From the NCBI RefSeq assembly GCF_014646355.1, contig NZ_BMNH01000032.1, positions 648-64,647 of the forward strand: DNA of 64,000 nt. The letters are read 5' to 3'. Origin of the DNA: Nonomuraea cavernae. GTDB taxonomy: Bacteria > Actinomycetota > Actinomycetes > Streptosporangiales > Streptosporangiaceae. Below, piece after piece: positions 23,651 through 60,780 of the stretch; the stretch's first letter is position 1, and the number at the start of each line of letters is the position of its first letter. The notes beneath the pieces are model-generated. The model had not been told where the DNA came from, did not search any database, and was given only the letters and a program-made list of their open reading frames with translations. The position numbers and the translations under genes were made by a program.

Positions 23651-23656
23651 ATCTGG

Positions 23657-23728
23657 TGGACGATACTGGGATTGAACCAGTGACCTCTTCCGTGTCAGGG
23701 AAGCGCTCTCCCGCTGAGCTAATCGTCC
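23657..23728 (-). tRNA. tRNA-Val (GAC)
   Basis: A 72-nt cloverleaf with acceptor GGACGAT/ATCGTCC, anticodon GAC in loop CTGACAC, and T-arm ACTGG-TTCAATC-CCAGT. The 3' CCA is encoded (23654-23656). The copy at 51740-51811 is identical except for one compensatory pair in the T-stem. Confidence 0.97.
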
Positions 23729-23732
23729 TTGG

Positions 23733-23803
23733 AGGTGGAGACGGGATTTGAACCCGTGTGGACGGCTTTGCAGGCCGCTGCCTCGCCTCTCGGCCACTCC
23801 ACC
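23733..23803 (-). tRNA. tRNA-Cys (GCA)
   Basis: A 71-nt cloverleaf with acceptor GGTGGAG/CTCCACC, anticodon GCA in TTTGCAGG context (read on the plus strand), and discriminator U followed by encoded CCA. It lies four bases from tRNA-Val and is identical to the copy at 51508-51578. Confidence 0.97.
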
Positions 23804-23818
23804 GAGACAGAATCTCCG

Positions 23819-23890
23819 AGCGGAAGACGGGATTCGAACCCGCGACCCTCACCTTGGCAAGGTGATGCTCTACCACTGAGCCACTTCCGC
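23819..23890 (-). tRNA. tRNA-Gly (GCC)
   Basis: A 72-nt cloverleaf with acceptor GCGGAAG/CTTCCGC, anticodon GCC and a perfect T-arm. CCA is not encoded. It is the first gene of the leftward Gly-Cys-Val cluster. Two identical copies lie at 51419-51490 and 51634-51705. Confidence 0.97.
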
Positions 23891-51418: not shown

Positions 51419-51490
51419 GCGGAAGTGGCTCAGTGGTAGAGCATCACCTTGCCAAGGTGAGGGTCGCGGGTTCGAATCCCGTCTTCCGCT
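51419..51490 (+). tRNA. tRNA-Gly (GCC), copy 1 of the rightward cluster
   Basis: Identical over all 72 nt to the tRNA-Gly at 23819-23890. Anticodon GCC, acceptor GCGGAAG/CTTCCGC, no encoded CCA. It is the first gene of a Gly-Cys-Gly-Val cluster. Confidence 0.97.
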
Positions 51491-51507
51491 CGGAGTTCAA
51501 CACTCCT

Positions 51508-51578
51508 GGTGGAGTGGCCGAGAGGCGAGGCAGCGGCCTGCAAAGCCGTCCACACGGGTTCAAATCCCGTCTCCACCT
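51508..51578 (+). tRNA. tRNA-Cys (GCA), second genomic copy
   Basis: A 71-nt gene identical to the tRNA-Cys at 23733-23803. Here the base after the discriminator is C-G rather than CCA, so the 3' CCA is not encoded, unlike the other copy. Confidence 0.97.
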
Positions 51579-51633
51579 CGGGCGGACGGCGGACCCTCCG
51601 GGATCCGCTAAGGTAAAGAGCAAGCAGCGCCAC

Positions 51634-51705
51634 GCGGAAGTGGCTCAGTGGTAGAGCATCACCTTGCCAAGGTGAGGGTCGCGGGTTCGAATCCCGTCTT
51701 CCGCT
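51634..51705 (+). tRNA. tRNA-Gly (GCC), copy 2 of the rightward cluster
   Basis: A second identical 72-nt tRNA-Gly within the same cluster, 144 bp from the first Gly gene. It is the gene absent from the leftward cluster. Confidence 0.97.
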
Positions 51706-51739
51706 CTGAGTGACAACTCAACATGTGACAACTCAACAC

Positions 51740-51811
51740 GGACGATTAGCTCAGCGGGAGAGCGCTTCCCTGACACGGAAGAGGTCACAGGTTCAATCCC
51801 TGTATCGTCCA
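51740..51811 (+). tRNA. tRNA-Val (GAC), T-stem variant
   Basis: A 72-nt gene equal to the tRNA-Val at 23657-23728 except that the third T-stem pair is A-T instead of T-A (ACAGG/CCTGT against ACTGG/CCAGT). CCA is not encoded (CCG follows). Confidence 0.97.
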
Positions 51812-51818
51812 CCGAGAA

Positions 51819-51891: not shown

Positions 51892-53097
51892 TCAGCTCTC
51901 CGCGAAGTTGCGGTCCGCCCCCTGCTCCTGCTCCTCGTCCGTCATCCGCATGCGGAAGAGCCTGTCGATGACGTACCCGATGGCGTACGTGAGGACGAAC
52001 GAGTAGACGCCGACCACCACGATGGCGACCGCCTGTTTGCCGAGCACCGCGACCGAGCCGCCGTGGAAGAGGCCGGGCACTCCGCGCAACTCGCCGGTGG
52101 CGAAGAAGCCGAGTGACAGGAGGCCGACGATGCCGCCCACCCCGTGGATGCCGGTGACGTCCAGGGTGTCGTCGTAGCCGACGACGAACTTCATCTCCAC
52201 CGCGTACGTGCAGACGATGGCGGCGATGATCCCGATGAAGAACGCGCCGACGGGGTTGACGAAGGCGCACGAGGGGGTGATGGCCACGAGTCCGGCGAGC
52301 GCGCCGCTGGCGGAGCCCACCTTGGTCAGGTGCCGGAAGCGGATCCATTCCAGCAGCCGCCAGGTCAGCATCGCGGAGCAGCCGGCGATCATGGTGCTGA
52401 CGAAGGCCCTGGCGGCCGTGGCGCCGTCGGTCAGCGCCGAACCGGCGTTGAACCCGAACCAGCCGAACCACAGCAAACCCAAGCCAAGCATGACATAGGC
52501 GATGTTGCCCGGCCTGGGCCCTTCCTGGCGGCGGAAGGCGACGCCCCGGCCCAGCACGAGCGCCATGGCCAGCCCGGCGATGCCCGAGTTCAGCTCGACG
52601 ACCAGGCCGCCGGCGAAGTCCATGACCCCCCACTTGCTGAGCCACCCGGACTGGGCGAACACCCAGTGCGCGATCGGCGTGTAGACCAGGGTGATCCAGA
52701 CGACGACGAAGGCGATCCACGGCCCGAACCGGGCGCGTCCCGCGATCGAGCCGCTGATGAGCGCGACCGTGATGATGGCGAAGGTGGCCTGGAAGGCCGC
52801 GTAGACGTAGATGGGGATCCGTCCGAACACCTCCGTGGGAGCCATGCCGGGGAAGTTGCTCCAGCCGATGAGGCCCACCCCGCCGGCGTCCGTGCCGAAG
52901 GCGAGCCCGAAACCGTAGGCGAACCACACGACGGTCACCAGGCTGATGCAGATGAAGCTCATATAAAGCATCGTCAAAAGGTTTCTGGAGCGGACCATGC
53001 CGCCATAAAAAAAGGCCAGTCCAGGGGTCATCAGAAGCACCATCGCGGTGCTCACCAGCATCCAGGCAGAATCTCCGGTGTTCAGACCGGTCGGCAT
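51892..53097 (-). CDS. amt: Ammonium transporter with Glu in the first twin-His position
   Basis: A 401-residue Amt/Mep/Rh channel with eleven predicted helices. MPGLAFFYGGMVRSRNLL-like and WVFAQSGWLSKWGVMDFAGG segments are diagnostic. The pore normally has two facing histidines. Here the first is Glu168 (GGLVVELNSGIAGL), while the second, His318 (GIHGVGGIVG), is kept. The same His-to-Glu change is known in fungal Mep1-type transporters and alters proton coupling and pH range. ATG with GGGGAAG upstream. No glnK gene follows. It is divergent from the urea transporter/urease genes. Confidence 0.94.
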   Translation of the reverse strand: MPTGLNTGDSAWMLVSTAMVLLMTPGLAFFYGGMVRSRNLLTMLYMSFICISLVTVVWFAYGFGLAFGTDAGGVGLIGWSNFPGMAPTEVFGRIPIYVYAAFQATFAIITVALISGSIAGRARFGPWIAFVVVWITLVYTPIAHWVFAQSGWLSKWGVMDFAGGLVVELNSGIAGLAMALVLGRGVAFRRQEGPRPGNIAYVMLGLGLLWFGWFGFNAGSALTDGATAARAFVSTMIAGCSAMLTWRLLEWIRFRHLTKVGSASGALAGLVAITPSCAFVNPVGAFFIGIIAAIVCTYAVEMKFVVGYDDTLDVTGIHGVGGIVGLLSLGFFATGELRGVPGLFHGGSVAVLGKQAVAIVVVGVYSFVLTYAIGYVIDRLFRMRMTDEEQEQGADRNFAES

Positions 53098-53316
53098 TTC
53101 TTCCCCCTCGTTCGAGCTGCATTTTCGAATTGCGCTCACAGGCACATGACGAGGCCCTGCCCGCTGTCTTGACCTTGGCACCGAGGAGGCAAACGCGACG
53201 TTTCATTACTTTGCCCATCATTAACTCTCGTCTCTTTTCAGTGGACCGGGCCAGGGAAGTTAACGGTGCGACCCCCTCGATTCGTGTTTTTCCTGGCGGA
53301 ACGGAGATCTGCGCAC

Positions 53317-54300
53317 ATGAGCTCGGCGTCGCTACCGGGGGACAAACCTGGCGGGACCGGCTCGACAGGGGGCAATCGGCTGACCGACCTGCTGTTGACC
53401 GTTCCACGCGGCGTCGCGCAGGTCGACTTCCAGCCGAGCTACTGGACGGGGCTGCTGTTCATCGTCGCGCTGTTCGTCGGCGGCTGGCAGTTCGGCGTCT
53501 TCGGGCTGCTGGGAACGGTGGCCGCCACCGCCACCGCCTACCTGCTGGGCGTCACCTGGGATCGGGTCGGCCTCGGTCTCGAAGGTTTCTGCGGAACGCT
53601 GATCGGTGTCAGCCTCGTCCTCTACCTCGGTGTCAGCTGGATGACCGTCTTCCTGGTCATCGGGGGCGCGATCGCCGGAAGCGTGCTCACCTCGGCCATG
53701 GTCACGGTGCTCACGCCGTACAACCTGCCGACGTTCACCGCCCCGTTCTGCGTGATCACCACGGTGATGGTGATCGGCGCGCCGTCGTTCGCCCGCGTCT
53801 GGGCCGGGCACGTCAACACCAGCGCGCCGTCCGTGACCCACCCAGGCACGGCGGTCACCTGGACCGACGTCTGGCAGGGCACTTTCAACGGCGTCGGCCA
53901 GGTGTTCTTCCAGAACAAGTGGTACGTCGGCGTCATCTTCCTGCTGGGGCTGCTGGTCGCCGGCCGGCGGATCGCGCTGGTGGCCTTCCTGTCCAGCCTG
54001 CTCGGGCTGCTCGTGGGCTGGTCGTTCGGCGCCCAGGCGGCCGACCTCGGAGCCGGTCTGTACGGCTACAACTCGGTGCTGACCGGGATCGCGCTGGCCG
54101 GGACGTTCGTCGTGCTGACCCCGATCAGCGGGGTCTACGCGGCGATCGGCGCCGCCTCGGCGGCCGCGCTGACCGCCGGGATCGGCAACCTGTTCGCCGT
54201 GGTCGGCGGCCACACCCTGACCTGGCCGTTCGTACTGATCACCTGGGTCTTCCTGGCCGCCGTCCCGATGCTCGCCAAGATCCACCGGGTCGCCGACTGA
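53317..54300 (+). CDS. Urea transporter (UT family)
   Basis: A 327-residue membrane protein of the UT/SLC14 family, forming a urea channel. Two homologous halves are visible, each with a gating stretch (GFCGTLIGVSLVLYLGVSW; YNSVLTGIALAGTF) and a proline-rich turn (TPYNLPTFTAPFCVITTVM; HTLTWPFVLITW), corresponding to the LxxPxxT pore motif region. It starts 29 bp upstream of ureA and is the head of the urease operon. The ATG at 53317 follows ACGGAGA. Confidence 0.92.
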   Translation: MSSASLPGDKPGGTGSTGGNRLTDLLLTVPRGVAQVDFQPSYWTGLLFIVALFVGGWQFGVFGLLGTVAATATAYLLGVTWDRVGLGLEGFCGTLIGVSLVLYLGVSWMTVFLVIGGAIAGSVLTSAMVTVLTPYNLPTFTAPFCVITTVMVIGAPSFARVWAGHVNTSAPSVTHPGTAVTWTDVWQGTFNGVGQVFFQNKWYVGVIFLLGLLVAGRRIALVAFLSSLLGLLVGWSFGAQAADLGAGLYGYNSVLTGIALAGTFVVLTPISGVYAAIGAASAAALTAGIGNLFAVVGGHTLTWPFVLITWVFLAAVPMLAKIHRVAD

Positions 54301-54329: not shown

Positions 54330-54638
54330 ATGAACCTCACACCACGAGAGATCGACAAGCTGCTGATCTTCGTCGTCGCGGAGCTGGCGGACAAACGCAG
54401 GAAGCGCGGGCTGAAACTCAACTACGGCGAGTCGGTGGCACTGATCAGCTCCGCCATCGTGGAGGCGGCCCGTGACGGCAAGACCGTGGCCGAGTGCATG
54501 GAGCTGGGCAAGAACATCGTCGGCCCGGACGACGTCCTGCCCGGCGTGCGCGGGATGCTCAAGCTGCTACAGGTCGAGGCGGCGTTCGACGACGGCACCA
54601 AGCTGGTCTCCTGCCACGATCCCGTAGGCGGGAAATGA
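54330..54638 (+). CDS. ureA: Urease gamma subunit
   Basis: A 102-residue structural subunit of nickel urease. [40 protein letters not shown] and [19 protein letters not shown]-type residues match the family end to end. GGAGGAGAAAG lies upstream. Its stop overlaps the start of a CbiX-like gene by 4 bp (ATGA), so that gene, not ureB, is its translational partner. Confidence 0.97.
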
Positions 54639-55381
54639 CGATCCGGCCCCGCGACGTCCTGCTGGCCGCCGGGCACGAGAGTCTCGGCGGCCAGAGCCTG
54701 CGCGACCTGGCCGGGCCGGGCACCGAGGCGCACGCCGCCGGTCGCGACCTGGCCGCGGCCGTCCGCGACCACGCCCGGGCCGTGGTCGTGCCGATGACGC
54801 TGGGCCGCGACCCGGGCCTGTCCGCCACCGCCGCGCAGACCCTGGCCTGGGCGGCCCGCGACCGGACGCCCGGAGATCTGCTGCTCGCGCCGCCGCTGGG
54901 CTCGCCGGAGCACCTGGTCGGCTGGCTCAAGGCGGCGATCGGCAGGGACCTGCGCGCCGGGCCGCCGCCTCAGGCCGTGGTGCTGTCGGCCCCGTCCGCC
55001 GGGCCGGAGCAGGACGCGGAGCTGTTCAAGGTGGCGTACCTGGTGGGGCGGGGCCTGCCGGTCCGCTGGGTGGAGGTGGCGTTGACCGGCGGCAGGCCGG
55101 ACATGACGGAGAGCCTGGCCCGCTGCCACCTGCTCGGGGCCGTGGACGTGCTGCTCGTCCCCGCCTCCTTCGTCCCGGCGCCGGTCCTGGACGGCGTGCG
55201 GACAGGCGGACCGCTGCTCGGGCCGGCCGGGCTCGCGGCGCTGATCAGAGACCGCGTGGCCACGGCGGAGCGCCGGTGGCGCCTCGACGGCGACGACGGC
55301 CTGTCCGGCGAGAGGAGCGCGCACCACCACCACGACCACCACCACGACTCCCTAGAAAGGGCGACGTTCCATGTCGGATGA
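54635..55381 (+). CDS. CbiX-like protein with histidine-rich tail inside the urease operon
   Basis: A 248-residue protein of the CbiX/SirB/CfbA chelatase fold. [11 protein letters not shown] (9-19) keeps a histidine near the first-strand metal position, [20 protein letters not shown] (51-70) is a clear family signature, and a second half ([30 protein letters not shown]) repeats the fold. The C-terminus is HHHHDHHHD (230-238), seven histidines in nine residues, a classic nickel-binding tail. It overlaps ureA by 4 bp and ureB by 11 bp. No ureE is present, so I infer a nickel storage or delivery role; true chelatase activity is unproven. Confidence 0.8.
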
Positions 55382-55859
55382 CGATGTCTACATTTACGGC
55401 GAAGGAAAGATCGAGCTCAACGCGGGACAGCGAAGAGTGATGCTCACCGTGCACAACACCGGTGACCGGGCGATCCAGATCGGCTCTCATTTCCATTTCT
55501 TCGAGACCAACCGCGCCCTGAGCTTCGACCGGGAGAAGGCATTCGGGATGCGCCTCGACATTCCGTCGGGCACCGCGGTGCGTTTCGAGCCGGGTGACAC
55601 CAAGGACGTCCAGCTGGTGGAGTACGGCGGCGGTCTGAGAATCGTCGGATTCGGCGGGCTGCTCAACGGAAGCGTCCGCTCTCGCGAGGCCCGGCGGGAG
55701 GCGATCGTGAGAATGCGCGCCCGCGGCTACCGCGACGAGCCGGGCGCCCCGGAGAAACCGGCGAAACCCGAGAGGAGCGAGAAGCCCGAGAAGGCGGAGA
55801 AGGCTGAGAAGGGCGCTGCCAAGACGAAGCGCGCACCCCGTACAGGCAAGAAGGGCTGA
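55371..55859 (+). CDS. ureB: Urease beta subunit with a lysine-rich C-terminal extension
   Basis: A 162-residue subunit. The core (1-105) is canonical: [35 protein letters not shown] and [17 protein letters not shown]. About 45 residues follow that are unusual for UreB: a Lys/Glu/Pro repeat tract ([20 protein letters not shown]) ending in a basic tail. It is likely disordered. The start overlaps the CbiX-like gene by 11 bp, and ureC follows after 5 bp. Confidence 0.95.
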
Positions 55860-55864
55860 CCTCG

Positions 55865-57589
55865 ATGACCAGCATCGACCGCAAGCGGTATGCGAGCATG
55901 TACGGCCCCACCGTGGGCGACCGGATCCACCTGGGCGACACCAACCTGGTCGTCGAGGTGGAGAAGGACTACACCGAGGGCCACTACGGCGACGAGGTCC
56001 AGTACGGCGGCGGCAAGACCGCCCGAGACGGCATGTCCGCTGATCCGGGGTCGCAGAACGCCACGACCGCCCTCGACACGGTGATCACCAACGCCGTGAT
56101 CATCGACCCGGTGCTCGGCATCATCAAGGCCGACATCGGGATCAAGAACGGGCGGATCGCCGGCGTCGGCAAGTCCGGCAACCCGCACACGCAGAACGGC
56201 GTGGACCGGCGGCTGATCGTCGGCGCGGGCACCGAGGTGATCTCCGGCGAGAACCTCATCGCCACCGCGGGCGCCATCGACACCCACGTCCACTTCATCT
56301 CCCCGCTGCAGGCGGAGCACGCGCTGAGCAACGGGATCACCACCCTGCTCGGCGGCGGCACCGGGCCGGCCGACGGCACCCGGGGCACGACCTGCACGCC
56401 GGGCCCGTGGAACATCAGCCGCATCCTGCAGGCGTACGAGGAGATCCCGATCAACGTCGGGCTCCTCGGCAAGGGCAACAGCAGCCTGCCGAAACCGCTG
56501 GAGGAGCAGCTCCGCGCGGGCGCCTGCGGCCTGAAGGTGCACGAGGACTGGGGCACGACGCCCGCCGTCATCGACTGCGCGCTGTCGGTGGCCGACGCCT
56601 ACGACATCCAGATCAACATCCACACCGACACGCTGAACGAGGCCGGGTTCGTCGAGGACACCATCAGCGCGATCAACGGACGCGCGATCCACACCTACCA
56701 CTCCGAAGGCGCCGGCGGCGGCCACGCGCCGGACATCCTGCGGGTGATCGGTGAGCCCAACGTACTGCCCGCCTCCACCAACCCGACACTGCCCTACACG
56801 GCCAACTCGGTGGACGAACTGCTGGACATGACGATGGTCTGTCACCATCTCAGCTACGACGTCCCCGAGGACATCGCCTTCGCCGAGAGCCGGGTCCGCG
56901 CCGAGACCATCGCGGCGGAGACGGTGCTGCACGACCTGGGCATGATCAGCATCATCGGCTCCGACTCCCAGGCCATGGGCCGGGTCGGCGAGTCGGTCAC
57001 CCGGGCCTTCCAGATCGCCCACCACTGCAAGGAGCAGCGGGGCCCGCTGCCGGAGGACTCCGAGCGTAACGACAACTACCGGGTGCTGCGCTTCATGGCC
57101 AAGGTCACCATCAACCCGGCCCGCGTCAGCGGCATGGCGGACCTGATCGGCTCGCTCGAGGACGGCAAGCTGGCGGACATCGTGCTGTGGCCCGTGCACT
57201 CGTTCGCCGTCAAGCCGCTCATGGTCGTCAAGGGCGGGTTGATCAGCTGGGGTGAGATGGGCGATCCGAACGCGTCGCTGCCCACCCCGCAGCCGGTCTA
57301 CTTCCGGCCGATGTTCGGCGCCGTCGGCAAGGCGCTGCGCAAGACCTGCGTCACCTTCATGTCGGACGCGGGCATCCAGAACCAGGTGCCCGAGCGGCTC
57401 GGACTGGAACGGCTGGTCGCGCCGGTGCGGCAGTGCCGGACGGTCGACAAGCGGCACATGCTGTACAACTCGACGCTCGGCGACATCAGAGTCGACCCGG
57501 AAACCTACAAGGTCACGCTGAACGGCGAGCTGATGACCATCGAACCGGCCCGCAAGCTCCCGCTCAACCGGCTCTACTTCATCGCCTGA
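55865..57589 (+). CDS. ureC: Urease alpha (catalytic) subunit
   Basis: A 574-residue nickel amidohydrolase that splits urea to ammonia and carbamate. All active-site residues are present: His141 and His143 (DTHVH), the carbamylated Lys224 (GLKVHEDWG), His253 (NIHTDTLNE), His279 ([12 protein letters not shown]) and Asp367 (GSDSQAMGR), with the mobile-flap Cys326 and His327 (MVCHHL). It should be fully active once loaded with nickel by the UreD-UreF-UreG complex encoded directly downstream. Confidence 0.98.
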
Positions 57590-57602: not shown

Positions 57603-58319
57603 ATGAGGCTGTCTCGCGGTGGCCTGGAGCCGCTGTTCGCCCAGTTCCAGCTGACGGACTCGGGTTTTCCCAGCGGGCTGTACACGCTGTCGCACGGGCT
57701 GGAGGGATACGTCCAGGAGGGGCTGATCGGCTCCGGCGAGCTGGACGTCCCGCTGACGGACCTGCTGACGGACCTGCTGGAGAACGCGGTGGGCCCGGCG
57801 GACGCCACGGCCCTGGTGCTCGCGCACCGCGCGGTCCAGTCCGGCGACTGGGACCGGGTGGTGGAGGTGGATCAGCGCCTGCACGCCGTCAAACTCGCCC
57901 GCGAGCCGCGCGCGGCCTCGACGAGGACCGGCAGGCAGGTGCTGGCCACGGCCGTCTCGGCCCTCGGCTCGGCGGCCGCCGCCCGGCTCGCCGACCTGGT
58001 CGCGCGCGAGGTCACCCCCGGCAACCACGCGGTCGTCATCGGGGTGGTGCACGCGGGCGGCGGGGTGCCGGTGACCAACGCGGTCGCCGGTGACCTGCAC
58101 GCGTTCGCCGCGAGCTTCACGGCGGCGGCGGTGCGGCTGGGCCGTACCGACTTCCGCCGGGCGCAGGCGATCCTGCGCGAGGTCAGGCCGGTCCTCGTGC
58201 GGGTCGCCCGGGCGGCGCTGGACGCCACCGATCCGCGCGACGTGCACGGCTGCGTGCCCGTCGCCGACACCGTCTCCGCCGCCCACGAGCGGGCGCCGGC
58301 CCGGCTGTTCATCACCTGA
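57603..58319 (+). CDS. ureF: Urease accessory protein UreF
   Basis: A 238-residue all-helical accessory protein that bridges UreD and UreG during nickel insertion and controls UreG GTPase activity. [20 protein letters not shown] (18-37) is the family signature, and [20 protein letters not shown] and the C-terminal helical region fit. It starts 13 bp after ureC with GAGGAG upstream. Confidence 0.94.
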
Positions 58320-58342: not shown

Positions 58343-58978
58343 ATGGAACTGGAAACGGTGTTCAAGGTCGGCGTCGGCGGGCCCGTCGGGTCGGGCAAGA
58401 CCGCGCTCATCGAGGCGCTCATCCCCATCCTCGTCGAGCACGGCCGCAGACCCGGTGTCATCACCAACGACATCTACACCCAGGAGGACGCCGACCACGT
58501 CCGCCGCGCGATGGCCGGCATCCTCGACCCGGAGCGGGTGGTCGGCGTCGAGACCGGGGCCTGCCCGCACACCGCGGTGCGCGACGACCCGACGATGAAC
58601 CTCGCCGCGGCGGCCGAGCTGCTCGACCGCTTCCCCGACATCGACCTGCTGCTCTTCGAGAGCGGCGGCGACAACCTGACGCTGACCTTCAGCCCGGTGC
58701 TGGCCGACGTGTACGTGTTCGTCCTGGACACCGCCGAGGGCGAGAAGATGCCGCGCAAGCGCGGCCCCGGCACGACGGACTCCGACCTGCTGGTCATCAA
58801 CAAGATCGACCTCGCGCCGTACGTGCGGACCGACCTCGCGGTCATGGAACGCGACGCGCACGCGGTGCGCGGGAGCGGGCCCGTCATCCTCACCGACTGC
58901 CTGACCGGCACCGGGGTCGGCGACGTCGCCGACTTCATCGAGGCTCGTCAGGGGGCGGAGTGGGTCTCGCAGAACTAG
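58343..58978 (+). CDS. ureG: Urease accessory GTPase UreG
   Basis: A 211-residue SIMIBI GTPase that delivers nickel to apo-urease. The P-loop is GGPVGSGKT (12-20), the metal-binding CPH motif is Cys74-Pro75-His76 (GACPHTAV), and [11 protein letters not shown] is the guanine-specificity motif. It has no histidine-rich N-terminus, so nickel storage must lie in another protein; the His-tailed CbiX-like protein is the obvious candidate. The end overlaps ureD by 19 bp. Confidence 0.97.
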
Positions 58979-59922
58979 CGCGCCGGCCCGGCGGCTCACC
59001 CGACCCGCTGGTCCCGGAGAGCTACACCGCGACCTGGCTGCCGCACCAGGTCGCCCGCCACGCCTCCGGCGTGGACATGCTGCCCGTCGGCAGCCCCGGC
59101 AAGGTCGGCATCCTCGACCTGGCCTTCGAGCGGATCGGCGACCGGACCGAGCTGACCGCCCTCTACCAGAAGGCGCCCCTGCACACCACGCGCCCGCTGT
59201 ACTACGACCCCGAGTGGCCCGGCCTGCCGTACGCGATGCTCCTGTCGTCCAGCGGCGGCGTCATCCAGGGCGACCGGTACCGCGTCGACGTGACCTGCGG
59301 CGCCGGTGCGGCGGTGCACCTGTCGACCGCGGCCGCCACACGCGTCTACCGGATGGACCAGGACTACGCCTCCCAGCTGGTGAACCTCACCGTCGGACCG
59401 GGCGGCTACCTGGAGTACCTGCCGGAGCACACGATCCCGTACGTGGACTCGCGCTACTACCAGCGGATCGGCGTCACCATGGCCCCGGACGCGACCGTCG
59501 TGCTGGGCGAGACCGTCATGGGCGGCCGGCTGGTTCGCGGCGAGCGGCACGCCTACGCCGCGTACTGCGCCGACCTGGAGGTGCGCGGCCCGGACGGGCG
59601 GCTGATCTTCGCCGATCCGATGCGCCTGGCGCCGGCCGAGCGAGCGGTGACCGGCCCGGCCGTGCTGGCCGGGTTCGACGTCGTGGCCTCCTTCTACGTC
59701 GTCACCGGTGACAGGCCGGCGCGGGAGCTCGCGGACGCGCTGCACGACGCGCTCTCGGGGACGGGGCTGCGGGCCGGCGCCGGCGTGCTGCCCGGGGAGC
59801 GGGGAGCGTGGGCCCGGATCCTCGGCGGCCGCTCCCCCGACGTGACGGCCGCCCGGCACCTGGCCTGGGACGTCGTCCGCAGGCTGCTGAGGGGCGTGCC
59901 GGCGCCGGACCGCCGGATCTGA
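58960..59922 (+). CDS. ureD: Urease accessory protein UreD (UreH)
   Basis: A 320-residue beta-helical scaffold that carries nickel through an internal tunnel to apo-urease. [53 protein letters not shown] and [13 protein letters not shown] are all family signatures. It starts at a GTG inside ureG, completing the ureA-cbiX-like-ureBCFGD set. The family signatures begin only after about 45 residues, so the exact start is open. Confidence 0.93.
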
Positions 59923-59945
59923 CCCACGAGGAGGGAGAGCCATCC

Positions 59946-60419
59946 ATGGAGAGCGATGAGCACCTGGGCCGGCGCGAGCGCGCCGAGGCCGTCTCGCTGC
60001 ACCCGCACGGCCCGCCGGCCTGGCAGCCGGGCGTGTTCCTGGACATCGCGATCGGGGGCGCCGTCGGCGCCCTCCTGCGTTATCTGCTGACCGCGGCGAT
60101 CCCCGCCTCGCCGACGGGTGTTCCCTGGGGCATCTTCACGGTGAACATGATCGGCTGCCTCCTCATGGGCCTGCTGACGTCGTACCTGCTGGTGACCAGG
60201 CCGCGGCCGTTCGTGCGCCCCTTCGCGGTGACCGGCTACCTGGGTGGTTTCACCACGTTCTCGCACCTCATCGACGGCGTCCACAGCCTGGGCGACGCGG
60301 GCAGATGGGGTCTCGGCGTCGGCTACGCGGTGGCCAGCGTGGTGATCGGCTGGATCGCCGTGGTGGCGGGCCTGATGCTCGGAAAGCACCTGCCGCACCA
60401 CAGAGACAGGACGGTGTGA
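59946..60419 (+). CDS. crcB: Fluoride channel CrcB (Fluc), subunit 1
   Basis: A 157-residue membrane protein with four helices and an N-terminal cytoplasmic extension of about 35 residues. Fluc signatures are GGAVGALLRY, FTVNMIGC and GYLGGFTTFS; the last carries the phenylalanine and threonine/serine of the fluoride track. Dual-topology dimers expel fluoride. It overlaps nothing but follows ureD by 23 bp and precedes its partner by 1 bp. Confidence 0.94.
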   Translation: MESDEHLGRRERAEAVSLHPHGPPAWQPGVFLDIAIGGAVGALLRYLLTAAIPASPTGVPWGIFTVNMIGCLLMGLLTSYLLVTRPRPFVRPFAVTGYLGGFTTFSHLIDGVHSLGDAGRWGLGVGYAVASVVIGWIAVVAGLMLGKHLPHHRDRTV

Positions 60420-60420
60420 G

Positions 60421-60780
60421 ATGGCGATCCTCATGGTGCTCATCGGCGGCGCGCTCGGCGCGATGTCCAGGTACGCCCTGGACCGCTACGTCAAGCAGCG
60501 AGCAGGCCGGGCCTTCCCCTGGGGCACGCTCACGGTCAACCTGCTGGGCTCGGGCTTCCTCGGCGCGCTGCACGGGGCCGGCACGGGCACCGAGGTGGAG
60601 GCGCTGCTCGGCACCGGCTTCTGCGGCGCGCTGACCACGTTCAGCACCTTCGAGCTCGACACCGTCCACCTGATCCAGGACGGCTCGTACGGCAAGGCCG
60701 CCGTGAACGCGGTCGGCAGCCTGATCCTCGGCTTCGTCGCCTTCGCCGTCTGCTTCGCCATCGTGCGCGCGCTCATCTGA
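60421..60780 (+). CDS. crcB: Fluoride channel CrcB (Fluc), subunit 2
   Basis: A 119-residue four-helix protein with GGALGAMSRY, LTVNLLGSG and GFCGALTTFSTF signatures. Paired crcB genes usually encode antiparallel heterodimers. It starts one base after the first crcB stop, so the two are co-translated. No fluoride riboswitch fits in the short upstream gaps. Confidence 0.94.
   Translation: MAILMVLIGGALGAMSRYALDRYVKQRAGRAFPWGTLTVNLLGSGFLGALHGAGTGTEVEALLGTGFCGALTTFSTFELDTVHLIQDGSYGKAAVNAVGSLILGFVAFAVCFAIVRALI

Follow-up and report, generated by a model that had tools for sequence, protein, structure and literature searches.

Why should a bacterial ammonium transporter carry glutamate where the first of its two pore histidines is expected, and what is it doing beside a set of urease genes? 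In the accessible parts of the literature, conservation of the histidine pair is described as wide, with fungal Mep1-like proteins as the exception (PMC7048316), Glu is given as the only common natural variant, occurring in fungi (PMC3647058), and the sole variation in natural sequences is ascribed to some fungal Mep proteins (eLife 2020, PMC7447429). No report of Glu168 in bacterial Amts was found in the literature searched, much of it available only in part and with most subscription journals outside the search. The gene considered here is located in a 64,000-nucleotide stretch of Nonomuraea cavernae DNA (the window), and its features are as follows.

51892..53097, minus strand: Amt-family ammonium transporter of 401 aa with E168 and H318 (PF00909 7.2e-114, TIGR00836, AlphaFold2, Foldseek)
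52594..52596, minus strand: GAG codon of Glu168, at the position of AmtB His168 (phmmer alignment)
52144..52146, minus strand: CAC codon of His318, equivalent to AmtB His318 (phmmer alignment)

The first-pass annotation, made from the bare letters, had the coordinates right; the strand is minus, and the gene is read from 53097 down to 51892 (401 amino acids and a stop codon). Judged by its sequence, the product is a true Amt-family transporter. It passes PF00909 (381 against a cut-off of 23.2) and TIGR00836 (396.6 bits against 343.3), and does not reach NF007947, the E. coli-type AmtB equivalog (303.8 against 657). The AlphaFold2 model, built from 19 sequences (pLDDT 88, pTM 0.90), has the Amt fold, with a TM-score of 0.92 to 2b2f, and a Foldseek search with this model returned A. 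fulgidus Amt-1 first, AmtB next and 2now sixth. Glu168 is contained in helix 164-182 of the model and His318 in helix 311-332.

The same annotation claimed that Glu168, in the motif VVELNSGIAGL, replaces the first pore histidine while His318 remains, and it considered that the true twin-His residue might lie elsewhere in the helix. The phmmer alignment of residues 5-397 to AmtB agrees with the claim: in the protein's own numbering, Glu168 stands opposite His168, and His318 opposite His318. The motif is aligned without a gap, which leaves no other place in the helix for the twin-His residue; the nearest gap, of one residue, falls ~10 residues upstream of D160. The best sequence match among the 31 PDB matches is 2now_A, the AmtB H168E mutant, whose motif VVEINAAIAGL has Glu at the same site. 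A sequencing error is unlikely, since relatives 87, 66, 67 and 63% identical to the window Amt share the Glu. The pore residues F107, F215, W212, S219, D160 and H318 are kept, and the other departures are Phe for W148, Ser for A171 and Leu for T165; the outer binding site and Phe gate thus retain F107, F215, D160 and S219, with Phe at 148. E. coli AmtB shares the Amt fold, ~41% identity and these pore residues, but has His168, Trp148, an adjacent glnK and a full C-terminal tail, in contrast to the Glu168, Phe148 and Ser171 of the window Amt, which has no adjacent glnK and a short tail.

The annotation had likened the protein to the fungal Mep1 type, and the likeness holds in part. As in Mep1/Mep3-type proteins, which are known to us here from papers, Glu stands at His1, His2 is kept, and the genome also has a His1 paralogue. 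The window system differs in being bacterial and in having several separate origins within Actinomycetota, and the available text of PMC9040831 describes for ScMep1 an additional Glu just before His2, where position 317 of the window Amt is Ile.

That Glu at this site alters pH dependence and substrate form in fungal Mep1-type proteins was also claimed, and the accessible portions of the papers on AmtB H168E and Mep2 H194E do report changed kinetics, selectivity and pH optimum (PMC9040831, PMC7048316, PMC3647058). The AmtB H168E current is 22.28 nA against 3.38 nA for AmtB, and its Km 12.87 mM against 0.8 mM; a K+-transport-deficient yeast expressing it grows on limited K+, and the authors attribute the altered behaviour to a wetter pore (PMC9040831). 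After 3 days on 1 mM ammonium, yeast growth had not been restored by AmtB H168E, a failure that they ascribe to toxic influx (PMC9040831). Transport is electrogenic in Mep1 and electroneutral in Mep2, and Mep2 H194E has a higher Vmax and a shifted pH optimum (PMC7048316). Restoring the histidine pair in Mep1 gives an inactive protein (PMC7048316), so that the Glu is probably accommodated by further residues.

The placement of the gene beside urease genes was correct; the rise in local ammonia and pH that the annotation expected there may bear on the Glu change, but this is conjecture. A urea transporter and ureA, ureB, ureC, ureF, ureG and ureD lie divergently from it:

53266..54300, plus strand: UT-type urea transporter ORF, divergent from the Amt gene (PF03253 5.5e-81; TIGR03441 186.6 bits, below the cut-off of 274.6)
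54330..54638, plus strand: ureA, urease gamma (PF00547 2.8e-41)
54635..55381, plus strand: CbiX-like protein, C-terminus rich in His, gene placed between ureA and ureB (Pfam CbiX 13.7 bits, below the cut-off of 22)
55371..55859, plus strand: ureB, urease beta (PF00699 2.7e-42)
55865..57589, plus strand: ureC, urease alpha (TIGR01792 903.4 bits, above the cut-off of 680)
57603..58319, plus strand: ureF (PF01730 8.6e-32)
58343..58978, plus strand: ureG (TIGR00101 255.4 bits, above the cut-off of 204.2)
58960..59922, plus strand: ureD (PF01774 4.2e-50)
59808..60419, plus strand: first CrcB (fluoride channel) ORF, true start probably further in (PF02537 6.2e-25)
60421..60780, plus strand: second CrcB (fluoride channel) (PF02537 8.2e-29)

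This gene set recurs in relatives, in varying order. Fourteen stretches with urease or UT genes were compared (the window, L119, L120, L121, L038, L039, L040, L133, L164, L165, L167, L168, L169 and L113); the L040 contig is short, and the L039 stretch gave no ureABC match. An Amt is present in 12 of the 14, with Glu in 11 and His in one (L113). The CrcB pair is found in 11 (the window, L119, L120, L121, L038, L039, L133, L164, L165, L168 and L113), and Pfam confirmed ten CrcB ORFs from five of the loci. The CbiX-like gene is present in eight, the window included, one of these being a weak partial match (L040). As in urease operons with UT, ureABC, ureFGD and UT share one block; the window block differs in adding the E168 Amt, usually the CrcB pair and in some cases the CbiX-like gene. 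In their accessible parts, neither PMC11139923 nor PMC4460590 reports a urease-crcB gene set. In Rhodococcus sp. CH91 (L113, 9899-11593), the urease/UT/CrcB/CbiX set is accompanied by a His168 Amt that is distant and has the motif DWAGGMVVHSSAG; urease linkage therefore does not require Glu. The window urease set looks accessory, since the own genome has a second urease alpha match (on C4) and such a match was obtained in 27 of 41 genomes (the own and 40 relatives).

Several smaller observations concern this block. Urease is inhibited by fluoride, and a protective role for the recurrent CrcB fluoride-channel pair is thus plausible; no fluoride riboswitch was found beside the CrcB genes in the four of seven sources searched. 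The His-tailed CbiX-like protein, which has relatives including that of Rhodococcus L113, is possibly a nickel chelatase or chaperone. It had no match in an NCBIfam search, and its relative at L119:6174-6917 scores 24.4 bits with Pfam CbiX (cut-off 22). An Rfam match to 5_ureB_sRNA lies antisense to ureC (56033-56320, minus strand, 74.3 bits, cut-off 40) and also occurs in L038 and L120; it may reflect coding conservation and not an RNA.

The window Amt belongs to a well-supported clade (99/97) of 13 sampled rows, all Glu and all lacking an adjacent glnK. The tree of this clade comprises 26 of the rows of an 82-row tree described below and seven new ones. Its members neighbour urease/UT genes at 11 loci and nitrile hydratase at two. 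The canonical C-terminal tail, ending in HAE-x-x-Y-D, is missing in 10 of the 13, namely those of the own genus and Streptosporangium (the window Amt ends in GADRNFAES), and a degenerate form of it is kept in the three rows of the Streptomyces branch. Among the 18 rows listed for them, other Glu clades, of Streptomyces type (beside GlnK) and Mycolicibacterium/Nocardia type, keep the canonical tail. Across 163 distinct loci, GlnK is a neighbour at 103 of 114 His loci and 22 of 49 Glu loci, and urease/UT genes at 1 of 114 and 8 of 49, respectively; many of the stretches are short, and because the window protein served as query in collecting most of the loci, these proportions are no census. Where at least 5 kb is available on both sides, GlnK is found at 63 of 71 His and 18 of 40 Glu loci, and urease/UT at 1 of 71 and 6 of 40. 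At 19 of the 49 Glu loci, neither urease nor GlnK occurs in the stretch covered. A Pfam scan took 93 ORFs from 13 of these 19 loci, out of 147 ORFs in all 19, and among the 25 families listed of 147 the only ammonia-releasing enzyme was dCTP deaminase (2 ORFs).

In its own genome, the window Amt is, by sequence comparison, the second of two paralogues. The other is a canonical His168 Amt of the same family and ~50% identity, which differs in having GlnK and GlnD beside it and a full tail ending in HAETGYD. Among 54 genomes of the genus, the His copy is present in all 54 and a Glu copy in eight (G567 has two). Full-length UT is found in the same eight genomes, and G018 has a partial UT with no Glu copy; Fisher's test gives p 1e-9 for this co-occurrence, or 9e-9 with the partial UT counted, treating as independent genomes that are not so.

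Two of the Glu copies in the genus have another kind of neighbour. In G566, the Glu copy (L163) lies apart from the urease block (L164), and it shares its neighbourhood, nitrile hydratase alpha and beta and CbtA, with the second copy of G567 (L166). At both loci the E168 Amt ends the nitrile hydratase/CbtA gene run (4220-10120 in L163), and both Amts nest inside the urease-linked clade. The product of nitrile hydratase is an amide, and no amidase was found among the L163 ORFs tested, so that ammonia release at this locus would need a further enzyme.

How common is Glu168? A degenerate motif pattern reading Glu, Asp, Gln or His at this position was run on 396 genomes drawn evenly from Actinomycetota. 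It matched in 135 genomes, with at least 150 matches; among the 150 listed, counted by eye, 21 have Glu, 129 His and none Asp or Gln. A genome without the exact motif is not thereby Amt-less. In the own class, all 60 matches in 38 genomes (the own included) were counted, and Glu occurs in 16 genomes, each of which also has a His copy. This two-paralogue pattern is not universal, since five of the 21 Glu genomes in the phylum-wide draw, all outside the class, have no His match to the pattern among the matches listed. In these five, G204, G053, G181, G385 and G299 (L143, L139, L140, L141 and L142), the Glu168 Amt lies beside GlnK, and they are possibly Glu-only species. With the same pattern, none of 54 listed matches in 121 Chloroflexota genomes has Glu (eye count). 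The pattern survey covered these two phyla. The annotation had framed the window gene as a single odd transporter, a view left without support by the recurrence of Glu168 across Actinomycetota. The E-type Amts of L048 and L051, recorded as Bifidobacterium breve MAGs, group with unclassified Actinobacteria, and those names look doubtful. We considered whether the mycobacterial E-type corresponds to M. smegmatis amt1 (PMC4222082, available in part) and rejected this: the neighbours at L087 include dCTP deaminase and UDP-glucose dehydrogenase, not the glutamine synthetase and amidotransferase genes given as neighbours of amt1, and the amt1 expression data therefore do not carry over to the E-type.

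The trees speak against a single origin of the Glu copies. Amt ORFs of at most 330 residues or at most 120 bits were excluded before alignment, 13 duplicate loci were removed before the 163-locus count and the larger tree, and one more row (identical or short) was dropped to give the 162 rows of that tree. In this tree (49 Glu rows), built with residue 168 masked, there are 10 His/Glu changes, at least eight of them forced by well-supported branches. For the 82-row tree (31 Glu), 14 rows, every one of them His and the urease-linked L113 among them, were first removed as long or distant; rows of the same label at least 80% alike were then dropped, with urease-linked rows kept. Free of long branches, it gives 11 changes (bootstrap range 10-12), again with at least eight forced, and a single-change topology appears in 0% of 200 bootstrap trees. 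A single clade of all Glu rows is rejected with a p-AU of 6e-45, a value that is indicative only because the Glu group was named after the sequences had been seen. Several diverse clades of the 82-row tree keep Glu throughout. Sister His/Glu pairs within one genome or record are found in Sinomonas (L116), Aurantimicrobium (L099), G030 (L124/L144) and the L109 MAG in the 82-row tree; the L109 pair is unresolved in the 162-row tree. The trees contain no fungal rows, and the counts do not separate gain from loss; since the rows outside the phylum are all His, we infer that His was ancestral at 168. In the sampled rows residue 168 is only His or Glu, whereas position 318 does not vary: all 176 aligned rows, with duplicates counted, have His there. 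Ser171 occurs with Glu168 across independent pairs (a mean of 5.5 of 8 together and 0.2 opposite, median p 0.0625), a suggestive association only, and it is a candidate for a residue that accommodates Glu. The Trp148-to-Phe change was also considered as a partner of Glu168 and discarded, having no association across independent pairs.

There is thus a bacterial class of Glu168 Amts with repeated origins, one clade of which is tied to ammonia-releasing genes. What might the window Amt do? From the AmtB and yeast mutant data, we suggest, at a little short of an even chance, that it is an ammonium permease of low affinity and high flux, free of GlnK gating, which recaptures ammonium from urea breakdown. 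Compared with AmtB, its pore would have a lower affinity for ammonium and pass a higher flux, and conduction would be electrogenic, since Glu168 would make the pore wetter and more cation-friendly while His318 would keep the deprotonation site. The outer binding site, with Phe148 in place of Trp, may be a further sign of this; W148L reportedly increases flux, going by the title of work by Fong in 2007. Lacking GlnK gating, the window Amt would stay open when urease action had brought ammonium into the millimolar range. The membrane potential, negative inside, from which the direction of transport is deduced, would drive the recapture of ammonium leaked out as NH3. The GlnK-gated His168 Amt would serve under scarcity. 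Against a strict link of urease and Glu stand L113, with the same gene set and His168, and G566, with its Glu copy not beside urease genes, and AmtB H168E may not predict the behaviour of a protein that evolved with Glu. The suggestion is also weakened by the failure of AmtB H168E to restore yeast growth, the 19 Glu loci with neither urease nor GlnK in the stretch covered, the absence of a ureABC match in L039, the five Glu genomes that gave no His match and the want of any association between Phe148 and Glu168.

It is also conceivable, though unlikely, that the Glu arose by neutral drift, being the only replacement tolerated in a second paralogue under relaxed constraint, and that the transporter behaves much like AmtB. 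Of 14 variants, H168E alone left AmtB effective in transporting methylamine (PMC3647058, in its accessible part), and the urease-linked copy is patchy, with Glu copies in eight of the 54 genus genomes. Drift does not sit well, however, with the at least eight forced changes confined to His and Glu, the invariance of His318 in all 176 rows, the maintenance of Glu through several diverse clades or the suggestive association of Ser171 with Glu168.

An overflow valve is rather improbable: a leaky pore would release cytosolic ammonium during fast urease action and so guard the cell against alkalinity and ammonium, and this would fit the recurrent partnership with urease and urea transporter and the lack of an adjoining GlnK. 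With a membrane potential negative inside, NH4+ is drawn into the cell, so that its export would need a very steep gradient, and NH3 passes through membranes without help. The chance that the protein is an ammonium sensor instead of a transporter is slight. Sensor Amts exist, and 6eu6 and 8qj3 are among the Foldseek matches, but Pfam finds no fused signalling domain, the C-terminus is short, and the pore residues are intact except at 168 and 148. Fungal Mep2 Glu variants, moreover, lose signalling and do not gain it, according to the available text of two papers (PMC7048316, PMC9040831).

A wider proposal we advance tentatively, with the balance somewhat against it. The fungal Mep2/Mep1 division of labour may have been re-invented in Actinobacteria several times and independently: a His168 Amt gated by GlnK would serve under scarcity, and a Glu168 paralogue, in many cases with Ser171, under abundance. 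One Glu168 clade would have lost the canonical tail and joined ammonia-releasing sets as a regular member (urease with UT and fluoride channels; nitrile hydratase). If true, this contradicts the printed view of the natural Glu variant as fungal only. Glu at His1 has so far been studied in yeast and by mutation of AmtB. The bacterial His/Glu changes, some of them between sister paralogues, offer natural replicate experiments on affinity, selectivity and proton coupling, and the urease gene set provides a physiological setting in which to test the Glu change.

The flanks of the gene gave some minor observations. Two tRNA clusters in the window (51419-51813 and 23654-23890) have the same Gly, Cys and Val anticodons, and one ends ~80 bases from the Amt stop codon. 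tRNA-linked integration was considered and rejected, as tRNAs flank the window Amt but none occurs in the stretches of eight relatives. A GlnR box upstream of the window Amt was likewise rejected: against the consensus, the best site matches at 7 of 9 bases, whereas the own H-type Amt has three upstream sites with 8 of 9. By eye only, the upstream region in G002 may have an element partly shared with that of the window Amt.
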